This document shows, one piece after another, positions 2,798 through 32,751 of a DNA stretch of 34,979 nucleotides. The position numbers and the translations under genes are program-made. Each line of letters opens with the position of its first letter. Positions within the stretch are counted from its first letter, which is position 1. Under the pieces are notes generated by a model. That model saw only the letters and a list, made by a program, of their open reading frames with translations. It was not told the DNA's origin and ran no database searches. The DNA is from Deltaproteobacteria bacterium (GTDB taxonomy: Bacteria > Desulfobacterota > Binatia > Binatales > Binataceae), in the NCBI GenBank assembly GCA_003135855.1, contig PNBD01000021.1, forward strand, positions 1,687-36,665. Direction: 5' to 3'.

Positions 2798-4086
2798 GCT
2801 GCTTTCCTCGCGCGCCTTAGCTGCGGTTCGGTCATCAACTGATTCCAGCGACGCCAGAACGCGCGCATCTGCAGTTCGTCGGTGATCGACGGATGCTCGC
2901 GCTTCATGCCGCGCGAGATGTCGGACCATCCGACTTCACGATTGGCAAAGCCGCGCTGACAGGACTCGAGCATCTCGACGTCGTCGGGCGTGGCGAATCC
3001 GCCGGGGCCGAGGAAGGTCAGGAAGTTGTCGAGGCGCAGCGCCGAGTCCTCCGCGCTCTCGTCCGCGGGCGCCAACGCCCACGCGTTCACCTCCATGTAG
3101 TCGGGCGAAACCGGATAGAAGGTGCGGACCGTGATCGCCATGATGTCGTTGATTACGAGATTGGGAAAAATTCCAAGGTTGCGGCTGGTCTCGCAGATGC
3201 GCCGGGCGCGCTCGGGACCGAAGCGTTCGTCGAATCGGCGCCGCAATTGCTCAAAATGCTCCTTGCGATGCTCACCGAAGGGCGCGACCCAGTGTGCGAT
3301 CGGACGGCCCCACGCGCTCTGATACTCGACCACAGCGTGGCCATTGCCGAGATCAACCGCCTGCTGTCGCGCGGGAGCTGTGAGGTTGCTGTTTTTGAAG
3401 TCGATGCCGATGTCGTTGAGAAAACTGAAATAGCGCTGATGAGTCGGCAGGCCGTGATAACCGTCGTAGCTGTTCTCCACCAACAGCTTCCAGTTGGCGC
3501 GTGCGCTGTACGATTGCTGCCCGGCGACGATCTTCATTCCAAGTTCGGACTGATCTGCAACCAGATCGAGGTACTCGCGCGCGCCGGCGAGGTAGTCATA
3601 TAGGCTCTGCGCCGCGGGATCGAAGCAGGCGAAAATGAATCCGCGATAATTGTCCACCTGCGGCGGTGAGGCCAACCCCATTTCGTCGCGCTTGAATGCG
3701 TCGCTGTAGGAGTCTTCGCCCGGCACTCCGACCAATTGACCGCGCGAGTTGTAGGTCCACGCGTGATACGGGCATTGGAACGTCCTGGCATTGCCGGACT
3801 TCTGGCGACAGACCAGTGAGCCGCGATGAGTGCAGGTATTTAGCAGGACGCGCACGACGCTGTCGTCGCCGCGCGCGAGGATCATTGGCCGGCCCGCGAC
3901 GTTGCGCGAGCGATAGTCACTGGCGTGCGGCACCTCGGACTCGTGCCCGACATAGATCCAGCACTTGTCGAAGACTCGACGCCGCTCCTCGTGGAGGCAT
4001 TCCGGATCGGTAAATGCGCGACGATTGACGCGAAACAATCCCGCGTCCTGATCATCGATGATGTAGTTCTCAGCCGATTTATCCAT
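2794..4086 (-). CDS. Rieske aromatic-ring-hydroxylating dioxygenase, alpha subunit
   Basis: A 430-residue catalytic subunit of a Rieske non-haem iron oxygenase. The N-terminal Rieske domain has the [2Fe-2S] ligands C85-x-H87 and C105-x2-H108 (in CTHRG and CPYHAW). The C-terminal domain has the mononuclear iron motif D208-x2-H211-x4-H216 in ENSYDGYHGLPTH and a later Asp-rich stretch (ATPDDVEMLE) that probably supplies the carboxylate ligand. Length is normal. The start at 4086 is preceded by AGGAGAGG at good spacing. Expected role: cis-dihydroxylation of an aromatic or related substrate with electrons from a ferredoxin. No ferredoxin or reductase gene is seen in the window, so these must be encoded elsewhere. 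It lies 35 bp after the SDR gene, which probably encodes the matching dihydrodiol dehydrogenase. The substrate cannot be read from sequence. Confidence 0.95.
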   Translation of the reverse strand: MDKSAENYIIDDQDAGLFRVNRRAFTDPECLHEERRRVFDKCWIYVGHESEVPHASDYRSRNVAGRPMILARGDDSVVRVLLNTCTHRGSLVCRQKSGNARTFQCPYHAWTYNSRGQLVGVPGEDSYSDAFKRDEMGLASPPQVDNYRGFIFACFDPAAQSLYDYLAGAREYLDLVADQSELGMKIVAGQQSYSARANWKLLVENSYDGYHGLPTHQRYFSFLNDIGIDFKNSNLTAPARQQAVDLGNGHAVVEYQSAWGRPIAHWVAPFGEHRKEHFEQLRRRFDERFGPERARRICETSRNLGIFPNLVINDIMAITVRTFYPVSPDYMEVNAWALAPADESAEDSALRLDNFLTFLGPGGFATPDDVEMLESCQRGFANREVGWSDISRGMKREHPSITDELQMRAFWRRWNQLMTEPQLRRARKAA

Positions 4087-4121: not shown

Positions 4122-4934
4122 CTACTTGTCGGACGGATTCCAGGCCCAGTAACGCGCGATCGCGCCCGCATCGACGCGGAGATCGGTGCCCGTGATCATC
4201 TCGGCGTCGTCCGATGCGAGAAAAACCACGGCGCGTCCATAGTCGCTCGGCCTCGGCAGCTTTAGCATCGGCACGCCCCTGCGAAACGGCTCGAACGCCT
4301 GCTTCAATTGGTCGGCGTTGCGAACGGTGCGGCCCCATCGAGCGGCGCGCTCCAATGACTCGGAAGGATCGGTCGCGGTCGGTGTAAGGCTGTTGACGCG
4401 GATGCTGCGCGCGACCAGTTCCATCGCGGCCGAGCGCGTGAAATTCAAAAGACCGCTCTTGCCGGTGCAATACGCGATGTTGTTCGGCTCGCCCTGATGT
4501 CCCGCGGTCGAAATAATATTGATGATGCTGCCCTTGCGATTCTGTTCGATCATCGACTTGGCGACATGCTTCGTGAACAGGAAAGTGCCGGTGAGAATGA
4601 TCTCGAGCTGGCGCTGCCATTCATCGAGCGGCATGTCGAGCACGCCTTTCTTGTTGAAGATGGCGGCGCTGTTCACGAGGATATCAATTCCCGCGAACGA
4701 CTCGCGCGCCGCAGCGACTGACGCGACTACCTGGCGCTCGTCGGTGACGTCGCAGGTTACGCCGATCGCGCGGCCACCCGTGCTCTTGATGTAGCGCGCG
4801 CAGTCGGCGGCATTGTCGGCGCGCGCGTCGACGCAGACGAGCGCGGCGCCCTCGGCCGCGAGACCCTCGGCGATACCGCCACCGATATTCGTGCTGGTCC
4901 CGGTGACCAGGGCCACCTTTCCTTTCAATTTCAT
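4122..4934 (-). CDS. SDR-family dehydrogenase (probable cis-dihydrodiol dehydrogenase)
   Basis: A 270-residue classical short-chain dehydrogenase/reductase. It has the NAD(P)-binding TGTSTNIGGG at residues 11-20, DV at 62-63, NSA at 88-90 in place of NNAG, catalytic S142 and the Y155-x3-K159 pair (YCTGK). The C-terminal GTDLRVDAGAI matches the family. An acidic residue (D36, in VDAR) at the end of beta2 favours NAD over NADP. Placed between a Rieske oxygenase and an extradiol ring-cleavage enzyme, it most likely oxidises the cis-dihydrodiol to a catechol-type product; this role is inferred from context. Spacing is 35 bp to the Rieske alpha gene and 33 bp from the extradiol gene, so co-transcription is likely. 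Confidence 0.9.
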   Translation of the reverse strand: MKLKGKVALVTGTSTNIGGGIAEGLAAEGAALVCVDARADNAADCARYIKSTGGRAIGVTCDVTDERQVVASVAAARESFAGIDILVNSAAIFNKKGVLDMPLDEWQRQLEIILTGTFLFTKHVAKSMIEQNRKGSIINIISTAGHQGEPNNIAYCTGKSGLLNFTRSAAMELVARSIRVNSLTPTATDPSESLERAARWGRTVRNADQLKQAFEPFRRGVPMLKLPRPSDYGRAVVFLASDDAEMITGTDLRVDAGAIARYWAWNPSDK

Positions 4935-15030: not shown

Positions 15031-16137
15031 TTAACGTCCTCCGGCAGCCGCGCTTTGCTCGCCCCGGGCAGAGCTCCGCTGGACTTGCGGCAACACTTCG
15101 TTCGCGAACAGTTTCATGCTGCGCTGCGCCACCTCGAGCGGCATCCCGCCGAACTTGAAAGTGCCGATGAATTCCGCCGCGTCCATCGTGCTGGCGATTG
15201 TGCGGAGCGTCTCGACGCACTGCGCGGGTGTGCCATAGACCTGGGTCTTGGTGAACATCTCACGGAATGAGCTTGCGCTGTTCTTGGTCGCATCCGCCAT
15301 TTTCGCGTGGAACTCGTAGCCCTTCGCGTTGCGGAAATGTTCCGGCTCGTCGTATTCGTAATGGCTGATGGCCGTATCGGCATAGTTGCCCATCCACTTC
15401 TCGGCGCCTGCGAGGGCCTCTTTCTCGGTCTCCCCGCAATAGATGAAGCACGAGACCATCGGCCGTTTTGCAGTATGGCCAAACTTCGCGCACGACTCCT
15501 TGAAATGGTCGTAGTCCTTCTTGTGCTCGGCCCACGATTTTTGCGGGATCACCAGCATCCCCATGCCCTGCTTCGCCATGATGTCGCCGGTTTCCGGTGA
15601 GATGATCGCGCCGTAGAAACGATCGGTGAGATTTTTGCGGCGGGGCTGCGGACGGATGCTCATCTCGGGAATCTGATTGTACTTGCCCTGGTAGGAAAAA
15701 CGCTCCTGCGTGAGCGCCAGCCGAACTATTTCCGCTCCTTCAACGAAGCGCTCGCGCGATTCGCTCATCGGCACACGGAAGCCATCGTACTCGATGCGGC
15801 CCGATCCGCGGCCGAAGCCAAGCGTGAGCTCGCGGTCGCCGCAATAGAGTTCGAGCATCGCGATCTGTTCGGCGACGCGCACCGGATCGTGCCACGGCAG
15901 CACCACGACCATCGAACCAAAGCCGACGCGACTCGTGCGGCCGGCCATAAAAGTCAGGAACTGCAAAACGTCCGGGATCATCGTGTACGGCGAGAAATGA
16001 TGCTCGACGCCCCAAATCGAATCGAAACCGAGCGGCTCGACCATCTCGGCGAGTGCCAGGTCTTCGCGATAGATCTCCCAGTCGGGCTTTTGCGCACGGA
16101 AGTAGTTTTGAAAAAAGAACGATGCTCCGACCTTCAT
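15031..16137 (-). CDS. Luciferase-like (LLM class) flavin-dependent monooxygenase
   Basis: A 368-residue member of the bacterial-luciferase superfamily starting MKVGASFFFQNYF. The motif FDSIWGVEHHFSPYTM carries the EHH signature of the FMN-dependent alkanal-monooxygenase-like branch, followed by VGFGSMVVVLPWHDPVRVAEQIAMLELYCGDRELTLGFGRGS. The C-terminus (VYGTPAQCVETLRTIA, FGGMPLEVAQRSMKLFANEVLP) is standard. GGAGGAAA precedes the ATG at 16137. It is the first gene of a minus-strand run that continues with the outer-membrane channel. It shares the family but little length or local sequence with the LLM at the end of the same run, so two different oxidation steps are likely. Substrate is unknown. 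Confidence 0.92.
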   Translation of the reverse strand: MKVGASFFFQNYFRAQKPDWEIYREDLALAEMVEPLGFDSIWGVEHHFSPYTMIPDVLQFLTFMAGRTSRVGFGSMVVVLPWHDPVRVAEQIAMLELYCGDRELTLGFGRGSGRIEYDGFRVPMSESRERFVEGAEIVRLALTQERFSYQGKYNQIPEMSIRPQPRRKNLTDRFYGAIISPETGDIMAKQGMGMLVIPQKSWAEHKKDYDHFKESCAKFGHTAKRPMVSCFIYCGETEKEALAGAEKWMGNYADTAISHYEYDEPEHFRNAKGYEFHAKMADATKNSASSFREMFTKTQVYGTPAQCVETLRTIASTMDAAEFIGTFKFGGMPLEVAQRSMKLFANEVLPQVQRSSARGEQSAAAGGR

Positions 16138-28221: not shown

Positions 28222-29235
28222 TCAACTGAAGTGCGGCATCAGATGCGTGCAGGCGTCGTCGAATGTCTTCTGTGGCGGCACCCCAGGCACCTCGAAGAAT
28301 ACCGGCGCGTTCATTCCCGCTTCGATCAGGCGCGCCAGGTTCTCGCGGCATCGCGCCGGACTGCCGGCGATGGTGAACGTATCGATCATCGAATCGGTCA
28401 CCATGTCTTTGGGGACGACGCCGCGCGCGAAGCTCTCGCCGAAGGCCTTGATCGTTTCGGGCGCGAGCCCCGCGGTCGCGAAGATCGGAGTGGTGGGCTG
28501 CGGCGCCATCACCGAAATCAGGATCGCGACGAAAGGCCGGAGCGCATCGCGAGCCGCGCGTTCGTTCTCCGAGATCGACGACAGAATGTACGCGCTCACC
28601 GGAAAATCGGATTTGTCGCGCTGCGATTTTTCGAGCCCGATGCGCAGATGCTCGGTGGCGAACTTGACGTAAGCCGGCGACGACATCACGCTGAGCAATA
28701 GTCCGTCGGCGATCTCGCCGGTCATTGCCAGGTTCTTCGGACCCAGCACGCCCAGGTGAATCGGAATCTCGGCGCGAGCCGGCTTGAAACTCAACTTGAT
28801 TCGATCAGTCTGAAACACCCGTCCCGCGTATGAGACCTCTTCGCCGCGAAACAACGCACGCGTGATATCGATCATCTCGCGCATCGCAGCCGCCGGCCGC
28901 GTGTACGGAATCTTCAGCCGCCCGCCAATCCAATCTTTCAATCCCGTGCCGATTCCCATGATCGCGCGCCCGCCCGACAGTTCATCGAGCGCCGCGAACT
29001 CCATCGCCGTGAGCGAGGGATGGCGCGTGTAGGGATTAATGATGCCGAGCCCGACTTTTATCTTGTTGGTCGAGCACGCCACCGCTGCCGCGAGCGTGAA
29101 TGCGCCGCGGTAGAAAGGATCCTCCGGGACCCAGAAAGTGCCGAAGCCCAGTTCCTCCGCGCGCTTCGCGTGCGACACGAACTCGCGAGCACTGAGGCTT
29201 TCGAAACCGACGCCGAATTCGCGAACTTTGGGCAT
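28222..29235 (-). CDS. LLM class oxidoreductase (Mer/F420-dependent type)
   Basis: A 337-residue luciferase-like oxidoreductase. The start PKVREFGVGFESLSAREFVSHAKRAEELGFGTFWVPED, then IKVGLGIINPYTRHPSLTAMEFAALDELSGGRAIMGIGTG and IHLGVLGPKNLAMTGEIADG, matches the methylenetetrahydromethanopterin-reductase-like branch that usually uses F420. Cofactor preference cannot be proved from sequence. GGAGA lies about 9 nt before the ATG at 29235. It follows the SnoaL-like gene by 15 bp and is probably co-transcribed with it. Confidence 0.9.
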   Translation of the reverse strand: MPKVREFGVGFESLSAREFVSHAKRAEELGFGTFWVPEDPFYRGAFTLAAAVACSTNKIKVGLGIINPYTRHPSLTAMEFAALDELSGGRAIMGIGTGLKDWIGGRLKIPYTRPAAAMREMIDITRALFRGEEVSYAGRVFQTDRIKLSFKPARAEIPIHLGVLGPKNLAMTGEIADGLLLSVMSSPAYVKFATEHLRIGLEKSQRDKSDFPVSAYILSSISENERAARDALRPFVAILISVMAPQPTTPIFATAGLAPETIKAFGESFARGVVPKDMVTDSMIDTFTIAGSPARCRENLARLIEAGMNAPVFFEVPGVPPQKTFDDACTHLMPHFS

Positions 29236-29250
29236 CTCGATTGTCTCCGC

Positions 29251-29706
29251 TCAGCGGTCGAAGCCCATTCGCGGCTGGTCCTGCGGCGCGCACCACGAAA
29301 AATGGCAGTGCCACATCTTCCACGCCGAGTTGCCGTTTTCGTCTTCGCGCAGGTAGATCTCGGTACTGCGGAACTTGCCGCTGCCGGGAATCGCCGTTCC
29401 ATCTTCCATCGTGATTGCGAAATCTGCGGTGCAGGTGAGCCACCCAGTGTCGCCGCGAATCTGGATGCTCAAGTTTTCGTCCTGGCCGAGTTTAGCGCGC
29501 GCCTTTGAGCCGATCAGAAATTTCCAGAGCGTCGCCCACTCCTCGATTCCGCTGTAGGTCCAGCCGTTCAGGTTGTAGCCGAAGAATTTGTCGCCACCGA
29601 CGAACGCCTCCCGCATCATCGGGATGCTGCCCTTGCGATTCGCCTCGGTCCACACGTTGTGTAGCCGCGTGATTTCGCGAACATCCTGCTCGTGGCTGTT
29701 GCCCAT
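29251..29706 (-). CDS. SnoaL-like/NTF2-fold protein
   Basis: A 151-residue cone-shaped NTF2-fold protein, seen from the N-terminal helix DVREITRLHNVWTEANRKGSI, the SGIEEWATLWKFLIG helix and the strand pair WLTCTADFAITMEDG...KFRSTEIYLRE, with a final WKMWHCHFSW strand. Such proteins act as polyketide-cyclase-like enzymes, isomerases or hydratases, or as small binding proteins. The pocket residues are not diagnostic. It has GGAGG at good spacing before the ATG at 29706. It is the leading gene of a pair with the F420-type LLM, so it may act on the same substrate. Confidence 0.8.
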   Translation of the reverse strand: MGNSHEQDVREITRLHNVWTEANRKGSIPMMREAFVGGDKFFGYNLNGWTYSGIEEWATLWKFLIGSKARAKLGQDENLSIQIRGDTGWLTCTADFAITMEDGTAIPGSGKFRSTEIYLREDENGNSAWKMWHCHFSWCAPQDQPRMGFDR

Positions 29707-29836
29707 GGCCGAATCCTCCGCGTGGTCTTCGCGTACATATAGCTGACTTGTATCTGATTTGCGCGAAATTGCATCTCCATCGATGCGGTCGGAGGGTTTG
29801 TCGCGCGCGCATCGATTCCGCTAAGTTTGCCGCGAC

Positions 29837-29842
29837 AGGAGG
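29837..29842 (+). promoter_or_regulatory. Strong Shine-Dalgarno pointing at an interrupted start codon
   Basis: AGGAGG lies 5 nt before the ATG at 29848. That ATG opens the frame of the MBL-fold gene, but the third codon is TAG. The site therefore marks the natural start of the gene, not the GTG at 29872, which has no ribosome site of its own. Confidence 0.75.
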
Positions 29843-29871
29843 ATCGCATGAATTAGTTCAAAATCGGCGAC

Positions 29872-30699
29872 GTGAAAATTACCCGTATCATAGAAAGCGA
29901 GGCGCCGTGGCCGGGTACATGGCTGCTCCCCAACGCGACGTACGAAAACGTGAAGAAGGAGGCGGACTGGCTCTATCCAACTTTCTCGGACGAGAAGGGC
30001 AAGCTGCGGATGAGCATCCATGCGCTGGTGCTGGAATCGCAGGGCAAACGCATCATTGTCGACACCTGCATTGGCAATGAAAAGGTGCGCAGCAATGCCG
30101 CCTGGAACAATCTGCAGACGCCCTTTCTGAGCGACCTCGAGAAGGCCGGTTTCGCGCGCGACAAGATCGATCACGTGGTCTGTACGCATCTGCACGTCGA
30201 TCACGTTGGCTGGAACACGATGCGCAAGAACGGGAAATGGGTGCCGACTTTTACCAACGCGCAGTACCTGATCGGCGGCACCGAGTGGGATTTCTGGTCG
30301 AAGTCGGACGTCAAGGACATGCGCGATCCGGTCGAGGATTCAGTGCGGCCGGTGATCGAAGATGGGATGGCGAAGCTGGTCGATTCCAATTATCGCGTCA
30401 CCGACGAAGTGTGGCTCGAGCCGAGTCCGGGCCACACCCCGGGGCATCACAGCGTGCGCATTTCATCGAAGGGCGTCGAAGCGGTGATCACCGGCGACCT
30501 GATGCATCATCCGATTCAATGCCGCTATCCGGAATGGGACGACACGTTTGATTCAGACGGCGCACTCGCGAAAAAGACGCGGCGCGCGTTTTGTGAGAAG
30601 TACGCAGACAACGGGGTGCTCGTATTCGGCACGCATTTCGCGACGCCGTCCGCGGGCAAGATCGTTAAGAAGGACGACTCGTTCCGCTTCGTTGCATAG
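29872..30699 (+). CDS. Metallo-beta-lactamase-fold hydrolase, natural start interrupted by TAG
   Basis: A 275-residue MBL-fold hydrolase counted from the GTG at 29872. The metal motif is THLHVDH (H106, H108, D110, H111), followed by GHTPGHHS, GDLMHHP and the C-terminal GTHFATP. The fold matches lactonase and organophosphate-hydrolase-like members. The real start appears to be the ATG at 29848, preceded by AGGAGG, but its third codon is TAG; a CAG codon there would read MNQFKIGDVKITRI, the expected N-terminus. Translation may begin weakly at the GTG, may re-initiate, or the gene may be silent. A terminator follows at 30715-30763. It diverges from the SnoaL-like gene. Substrate is unknown. Confidence 0.85.
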   Translation: MKITRIIESEAPWPGTWLLPNATYENVKKEADWLYPTFSDEKGKLRMSIHALVLESQGKRIIVDTCIGNEKVRSNAAWNNLQTPFLSDLEKAGFARDKIDHVVCTHLHVDHVGWNTMRKNGKWVPTFTNAQYLIGGTEWDFWSKSDVKDMRDPVEDSVRPVIEDGMAKLVDSNYRVTDEVWLEPSPGHTPGHHSVRISSKGVEAVITGDLMHHPIQCRYPEWDDTFDSDGALAKKTRRAFCEKYADNGVLVFGTHFATPSAGKIVKKDDSFRFVA

Positions 30700-30714
30700 C
30701 GATTCAGTTTGCGG

Positions 30715-30763
30715 GCGGCGCCAATCGTGCTCGACACGGCTGGCGCCGCTTTTCTTCTTCTTT
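30715..30763 (+). terminator. Intrinsic terminator after the MBL-fold hydrolase
   Basis: A perfect 9-bp stem (GCGGCGCCA with TGGCGCCGC) around a 17-nt loop is followed by TTTTCTTCTTCTTT. It terminates the plus-strand MBL gene and its T-rich end overlaps the last codons of the convergent GST gene. Confidence 0.8.
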
Positions 30764-31541
30764 ACGACACTTCGCTCGAAAATCGGATGGTCTTTTTCTT
30801 CAGTCCTGCGAGAACCACCTCGACGCCGCCGCTACGCATCATCCATTCGAGGCGATGATCGCGATACTGGCGCGCGAACGCGCCTGACTCGAGCATCTGC
30901 GGCAGCACATCGAGCGAGCCGGCAAACTGCTGGGTCGCTTCGATCGTCTTGCGCACGCTCGACCGCTCTTCCACCCGGCTGACCCACGTCGCCAGCGGCG
31001 TGTTTGCTTTGGGACCGACACCCCAGACCACCGAGCCATGCACGTGCGGATAGACGCTCAAATCTCCATAGCCGAACGAGGCGCCGTTGAAATACTGCGA
31101 CGAACCAAGCTCTCGCTCGAGCCACTTGAACACGCCGGCAGTCTGTTCCGTGGCGCGCGATTCGAGCTGCATCGCCGCGTCGCCGGTGACCCGTTTCCAC
31201 GCGCGAACTTCCATCAGTCCCCAATTGATCGCTTCGTAATAGGTGTCGCACACGTCCTCGATCATGCGGACTCGCGCGCGCTCGCGCGGCGTCGGCGGCA
31301 GCATCGGCGGGGTCGGCCACTTCTCCTCGAGGTAATCGAGAATGATCGTCGAATCGAAAATCGCGAAGCCATCGTCAACCAACGCCGGCACTTCGAGCCG
31401 CGGATTCATTTTGCCGAACTCGGTCGGACCGCCGCTGAACGCGTCCGGCACTTCGACCTCGAACGCCACGTTCTTTTCGTAGAGTGAGATCTTGACCTTC
31501 TGCACGTAGGGCGAAAACGGATGCTCGTATAGTTTCAACAT
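30762..31541 (-). CDS. Glutathione S-transferase family protein
   Basis: A 259-residue glutathione transferase. The thioredoxin-like N-terminal domain reads LKLYEHPFSPYVQKVKISLYEKNVAFEVEV, then MNPRLEVPALVDDG and FDSTIILDYLEEKWP, the glutathione-binding region. The remainder is the all-helical C-terminal domain with SFGYGDLSVYPHV at the expected place. The S-P-Y near the N-terminus suggests a Ser- rather than Cys-type active site. I start at 31541 because the conserved strand begins there, with AAGGA about 8 nt upstream. It converges on the MBL-fold gene and diverges from an LLM gene. Conjugation or isomerisation of a xenobiotic is a reasonable guess. Confidence 0.9.
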   Translation of the reverse strand: MLKLYEHPFSPYVQKVKISLYEKNVAFEVEVPDAFSGGPTEFGKMNPRLEVPALVDDGFAIFDSTIILDYLEEKWPTPPMLPPTPRERARVRMIEDVCDTYYEAINWGLMEVRAWKRVTGDAAMQLESRATEQTAGVFKWLERELGSSQYFNGASFGYGDLSVYPHVHGSVVWGVGPKANTPLATWVSRVEERSSVRKTIEATQQFAGSLDVLPQMLESGAFARQYRDHRLEWMMRSGGVEVVLAGLKKKTIRFSSEVS

Positions 31542-31685
31542 GATGGGTCCTTTTCGATTTCGTGGTTGCGGCTTCAAACCATACGCGGATTTTCGTCGCG
31601 CGAAAATGGTGCTAGTTGAGTGGCGATGCTACTGGAGTGAGTCAGGCAAGTTGGCCGACGCGCGCACGTCGCGAGTCGCACCGCA

Positions 31686-31691
31686 AAGGAG
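31686..31691 (+). promoter_or_regulatory. Ribosome-binding site deciding the LLM start
   Basis: AAGGAG lies 7 nt before the ATG at 31699 but only 1 nt before the ATG at 31693, so the former is favoured. Confidence 0.6.
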
Positions 31692-31698
31692 CATGGCG

Positions 31699-32751
31699 AT
31701 GGAATTTGGAATTGCACTGGCGTCGAATCTCGATGCGTGGAAAACAGTCAAACGCGCCGAGGAACTCGGCTTTTCGCATGCGTGGTTCTACGATTCGCAA
31801 ATGCTGGCGCCCGACATATTCGTCACGATGGCTCTGGCAGCCGACCGGACGTCAAAGATCAAACTCGCGATGGGCGTGCTGGTGCCGACCAACCGGATCG
31901 CGCCGGCCGCCGCCAACGGTCTCGCGTCGCTGAACAAGCTCGCACCGGGACGAATTGTCTTCGGCGTCGGCACCGGATTCACGGCGCGCAACACGATGGG
32001 CCTTGGCCCGATGCGGCTTAGCGATCTGCGCGAATATCTGCGCGTCGTGAAAGGCTTGCTCGGCGGCGAAACTGTGGAATGGGAATGCGAAGGCGCGCGC
32101 CACAAAATTCGATTCCTCAATCCCGAGGCGGGCATGATCAACATCAAGGATCGAATCCCGCTGCATCTGTCGGCCTTCGCTCCGAAAGCGCGCAAGTTGA
32201 CCGCTGAAATTGCCGACGGATGGATCAACTTCACGCCTACCGTGGCGCGCGCGATTTCTGAGGCGGGCGAACTTGCCAAGGCGTGCAAAACGGTCGGACG
32301 CGCGCCGGAGAGCCTGTATCGCACCAGCTTCGCGCTCGGATGCGTGCTCGGCGAAACTGAATCAGCGGGCAGTGCTCGCGCCAAGGCGCAAGCCGGTCCG
32401 ATGTCGGTCGTTTATCTGCATGGACTGGTCGAAGCGACGCTGGGTTTCGGAGTGCCGCCGGAAATTGCGGCGATCATCGAGGCGTATCGCAAGCAGCACG
32501 CGACCTATCAGCCGGCCGACGCGCGTTACCTGCAAATGCATAAGATGCATTTGATTGGCGTGCGCCCCGAAGAAGAAAAATTCCTCTCGCCAGAGCTGAT
32601 CAAAGCGACCACCTTCACCGCGACGGCGACGGAGTTGCGCGATCGCATTCGTGCGCTGCGCGACGGCGGTTACGATCAATTCGTGATTCAACTGGTCCCA
32701 GGTCACGAAGCGGCGCTCGAGGATTGGGCCGCCGTCTTCGACAGCGTGTGA
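31699..32751 (+). CDS. LLM class oxidoreductase (F420-dependent type)
   Basis: A 350-residue luciferase-like oxidoreductase starting MEFGIALASNLDAWKTVKRAEELGFSHAWFYDSQ. It carries LAMGVLVPTNRIAPAAANGLASLNKLAPGRIVFGVGTGF and IPLHLSAFAPKARKLTAEIADGW, which place it near F420-dependent reductases of the Mer type. The C-terminus (TATATELRDRIRALRDGGYDQFVIQLVPGHE) is standard. The start is set by AAGGAG at 31686-31691. It diverges from the GST gene and converges on the GT2 gene 27 bp away, so it is likely monocistronic. Substrate is unknown. Confidence 0.9.
   Translation: MEFGIALASNLDAWKTVKRAEELGFSHAWFYDSQMLAPDIFVTMALAADRTSKIKLAMGVLVPTNRIAPAAANGLASLNKLAPGRIVFGVGTGFTARNTMGLGPMRLSDLREYLRVVKGLLGGETVEWECEGARHKIRFLNPEAGMINIKDRIPLHLSAFAPKARKLTAEIADGWINFTPTVARAISEAGELAKACKTVGRAPESLYRTSFALGCVLGETESAGSARAKAQAGPMSVVYLHGLVEATLGFGVPPEIAAIIEAYRKQHATYQPADARYLQMHKMHLIGVRPEEEKFLSPELIKATTFTATATELRDRIRALRDGGYDQFVIQLVPGHEAALEDWAAVFDSV

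Follow-up and report, generated by a model that had tools for sequence, protein, structure and literature searches.

This locus raises the question of how a gene that sits behind a strong ribosome-binding site comes to carry a stop at its third codon, when the rest of its frame is whole. Direct reading of the forward strand of the window (the whole stretch of 34,979 nucleotides analysed here) confirmed the layout that a previous sequence-only reading had described: a Shine-Dalgarno AGGAGG (29837-29842), a 5-nt spacer (ATCGC), an ATG (29848-29850), AAT as the second codon, TAG as the third (29854-29856) and then an open frame for an MBL-fold hydrolase (29857-30699) of 280 sense codons that closes with a TAG at 30697-30699. 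The duplex of AGGAGG with the anti-Shine-Dalgarno tail was computed at -10.3 kcal/mol, and the nearest conventional restart codon is an in-frame GTG (29872-29874) that lies 15 nt past the early stop. Upstream on the same strand, a -35-like element (TTGTCG, 29798-29803) and a -10-like element (TAAGTT, 29822-29827), 18 nt apart, fall in one conserved footprint, TTGNNN-N17/18-TAAGTT, which among 29 loci scanned precedes the hydrolase gene in all 5 congeners whose N-terminus could be read (G001 and G003-G006) and in 2 further family members (L010 and L011). We infer a promoter role for this footprint, and as it ends (29798-29827) only 9 nt 5' of the Shine-Dalgarno sequence in the window, the mRNA leader is expected to be very short. 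An Rfam search at the hydrolase locus returned no match.

The frame after the stop encodes what appears to be a complete enzyme. It matched Pfam Lactamase_B (PF00753) with E = 5e-17 and 62.9 bits, above the gathering score of 22.7, and it holds the metal-binding motif HLHVDH (30187-30204) followed by a His (30433-30435), an Asp (30496-30498) and a His (30634-30636). The residues that we take from family knowledge to be metal ligands (H111, H113, D115, H116, H193, D214 and H260) are thus all present, with the HxHxDH motif and the later His, Asp and His intact, and the protein has no excess of unusual residues and no damage at conserved ones. A structure model built from 45 sequences reached a mean pLDDT of 95.7, and its best PDB matches by Foldseek were a reconstructed ancestor of methyl parathion hydrolase, methyl parathion hydrolase itself, LrsL and AidC, with 5hif at the top. 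The hydrolase shares both its fold (TM about 0.8 and Foldseek E as low as 8e-26 against 4zo2, 7y7u, 5hif and 1p9e) and the HxHxDH motif with the quorum-quenching lactonases AidC, AidB, YtnP and LrsL and with methyl parathion hydrolase, yet it is only 20-26% identical to those four structures, and it falls far under the NCBIfam cut-offs for the best-matching model, AidB-type lactonase (81.4 bits against 360), and for YtnP lactonase (78.8 bits against 425). Judging from sequence, it is a related yet separate subfamily in the branch of the AidC/AidB/YtnP lactonases and methyl parathion hydrolase. In the window, the hydrolase is flanked by genes for two luciferase-like monooxygenases, a SnoaL-like protein and a GST, which together with it form a five-gene block (28222-32751) that is common to G003, the closest relative; the stretches from G001 and G006 instead have M20-peptidase and polyphosphate-kinase genes near the hydrolase.

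Comparison across orthologues placed the early stop on a single lineage. Matches at E <= 0.001 occurred in 50 of 58 genomes, the window's own counted, many of them being weaker superfamily matches, and 113 loci (L001-L113) gave 98 distinct 5' ends once 3 distant paralogues, 2 loci that lacked the N-terminus and 10 duplicates were left out. Among these 98, the start lies exactly three codons before a conserved Trp/Phe as ATG in 67 and as GTG or TTG in 8, and at another nearby distance from that residue in 22; the stop is found only in the window, as would be expected of a pseudogene made by a nonsense mutation. The sequence-only reading would have given way had orthologues started later, and instead all 97 other 5' ends possess an upstream start codon with no stop between. 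The ATG at 29848-29850 is the ancestral start: it occupies the matching position in every congener whose N-terminus could be read, namely G001, G003, G004, G005 and G006, and all 5 have ATG AAC CAG; G002, whose match begins only at residue 78 at a contig end, stands outside this count, and the more distant L036 reads ATG GAC CAA. The match to orthologues begins at the first codon after the window's stop. Hence the proposal that a C-to-T change turned CAG into TAG agrees with the congeners, and one change indeed suffices for the stop, although a second, synonymous C-to-T in codon 2 adjoins it and the difference as a whole is not the single change first described.

From G003 to the window the sequence thus runs from AACCAG to AATTAG, with only the second change creating the stop, and 5 outgroup sequences polarise both T's to the window's lineage. 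The CC-to-TT pair gained no support as a special damage signature: the 4.5 kb common to the window and G003 holds 140 adjacent double differences, so at this distance such a pair needs no special cause. Between the two genomes the hydrolase is 94.6% identical in amino acids, more than any of the other four genes in the shared block (82.6 to 90.5%), and 89.8% identical in nucleotides, with dN 0.030, dS 0.487 and dN/dS 0.06. Taken together with the lack of unusual residues, these values indicate that the gene was under constraint until recently. Polarised changes number 26 on the window's lineage and 10 on that of G003 (52 were unpolarised), and 2 polarised amino-acid changes fall on each lineage; the event may be too recent for a signal of relaxation.

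These observations are best explained, and probably so, by a nonsense mutation that struck codon 3 of this conserved MBL-fold hydrolase gene recently and on this lineage only, and that is perhaps leaky through weak restart. Ribosomes recruited by the strong Shine-Dalgarno sequence would make fMet-Asn and terminate at UAG, with the outcome that the full-length enzyme would not be made, or that a little N-terminally shortened protein would arise by restart at the GTG at 29872; the gene would then be either a pseudogene in the making or an allele with strongly lowered expression, and in both cases too young for other damage. It is most likely that expression of the hydrolase is abolished or greatly lowered, and the stop appears to have arisen recently. 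Nascent bacterial pseudogenes of the nonsense-mutated kind likewise carry one stop, private to one genome, close to the beginning of a gene that is otherwise intact and under constraint, the only difference here being that the stop comes as early as codon 3 and restart is formally possible. Two features count against this account: the strong constraint and top conservation within the block would be compatible with continued expression as well, and the genome holds no close second copy (the next best match has 22% identity), so that loss of the hydrolase would go without a paralogue to buffer it.

The strongest rival to a recent nonsense mutation, which we consider unlikely but not negligible, is that the base at 29854 in the draft is an error or a minority variant, the gene being intact in the population. 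In favour of this, the window lies on contig C129 of a draft genome of 4,499,885 bases in 157 contigs (90.36% complete, 3.82% contaminated), and the hydrolase is otherwise constrained and undamaged; moreover, other single stops interrupt otherwise whole frames in 474,562 sampled bases of this genome, at C72:83120 (an aldo/keto reductase) and C103:16117 (a repeat protein). Arguing against an error, both neighbouring bases differ from G003 and the remaining differences from that genome are mostly synonymous (62 codons against 15 non-synonymous), which is like real evolution and unlike random error. From the assembly alone, a real T at 29854 looks the same as a consensus error or a minority strain.

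A wider test for disrupted genes, which scored codon usage and sees only stops with 60 open codons on each side, flagged 56 stops, 24 of which were read by eye; the other 32, mostly ones whose opposite strand had an equal or better score, were left out. Full translation of four of the 24 gave two apparently real single stops, one tandem gene pair and one probable selenocysteine site. The first of the single stops is a TAA in an aldo/keto reductase frame on the minus strand (L199, G000:C72:80001-100000, at 3120-3122), a codon that reads CAA in 5 of 6 congeners (G001 and G003-G006) and CAC in the sixth, G002; this comparable event in the same genome counts in favour of a nonsense mutation in the hydrolase. 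The second, also a TAA, lies inside the repeats of a long, repeat-rich, surface-type protein frame (L203, G000:C103:1-20000, at 16117-16119). Occasional nonsense codons, real or artefactual, are therefore ordinary in this draft genome. A TAA on the window's own contig (C129:68685) was a false alarm by eye, an SDR-like protein whose likely start is inside the open frame, and the window's hydrolase was the only start-stop case accepted in the sampled bases. The selenocysteine candidate is a thioredoxin/AhpC-like frame (L200, G000:C69, at 4251-4253) with TGA at SADW*PYC, where Cys would presumably be expected; a tRNA-Sec was found at L205 (G000:C124:45632-45723; 72.4 bits, with ARAGORN in agreement), and probably the frame is a selenoprotein and the lineage decodes selenocysteine.

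Functional restart, in which ribosomes terminate at the TAG and reinitiate at the GTG at 29872 so that the gene stays alive at a reduced level, is improbable, more so than an assembly error. Translational restarts after early nonsense codons occur in lacI, and the window resembles them in having an early stop with an in-frame start codon, here 15 nt on, shortly downstream. The same arrangement is seen in termination-reinitiation gene pairs, for which PMC10666635 reports a cut in reinitiation of 40-80%, not its abolition, at a +14-nt gap in E. coli; a leak through the GTG is thus possible. Here, by contrast with both systems, the GTG pairs weakly with the anti-Shine-Dalgarno tail (-2.1 kcal/mol against -10.3 at the ATG) and the product would lose an invariant residue. 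That product would lack FKIGD, which includes a Gly found in every one of the 98 orthologues and belongs to a part modelled at pLDDT of about 98, and a start at the GTG position was seen in none of the orthologues examined (98 distinct 5' ends). The aligned codon is GTG in just 28 of the 98, the window included, and so is not a kept start. We accordingly rejected the GTG as the ancestral start given its weak pairing, the lack of any orthologue seen to start there and the Gly that would be lost, and the suggestion of a start or re-initiation at this codon survives only as a possible weak leak.

A still bolder interpretation, that the two-codon fMet-Asn-stop frame is a selected leader tuning or coupling translation of the hydrolase, is very unlikely. 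The combination of strong Shine-Dalgarno, minimal frame and restart codon 15 nt downstream speaks for it, but the arrangement is found in 1 of 7 genus genomes. The pattern AGGAGGN{3,10}ATGNNNTAG gave 11 hits across those genomes against 16 for a reversed control, which is the chance level, and none of the other hits precedes a long frame (the longest has 65 codons, compared with 280 in the window). What lifts the window's SD-ATG-AAT-TAG above chance is hence its long frame and the homology to orthologues, which sets in with the codon directly behind the stop. A conserved-looking AGGAGGCGGATGAAGTAG in four congeners stands before a frame of only 65 codons. It is similarly very doubtful that the mini-ORF is a selected, lineage-specific valve that halts most ribosomes at codon 3 and lets a small, fixed share of them restart at the GTG; if true, the hydrolase would lack its N-terminal residues and its level would be kept low.

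Insertion of an amino acid at the UAG of codon 3 can be dismissed almost entirely, for although the genome seems to have selenocysteine at TGA (the tRNA-Sec and the candidate SADW-U-PYC protein), RF1 is present (profile match, 516.6 bits), none of 40 tRNA matches, all covered by ARAGORN in a genome about 90% complete, has the anticodon CTA, TAG ends 84 of 298 coding-like frames in the 474,562 sampled bases and the early TAG is not kept in relatives, so that UAG terminates here, as the sequence-only reading had argued in regarding general recoding as unlikely, and the suppression it had left open becomes very unlikely. As the genome is about 90% complete, there is a slight chance that a UAG-reading tRNA was missed.

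The early stop of the hydrolase is most likely an ordinary kind of event with no special decoding trick, and a recent nonsense mutation remains the account we favour. A codon-3 stop behind a perfect ribosome-binding site is easily missed by ORF calling, because a caller working on DNA alone starts the frame at the GTG (listed as 29872..30699) and so hides the lesion. If expression persisted despite the stop, the locus would offer a natural experiment on how efficiently translation restarts in an uncultured lineage.
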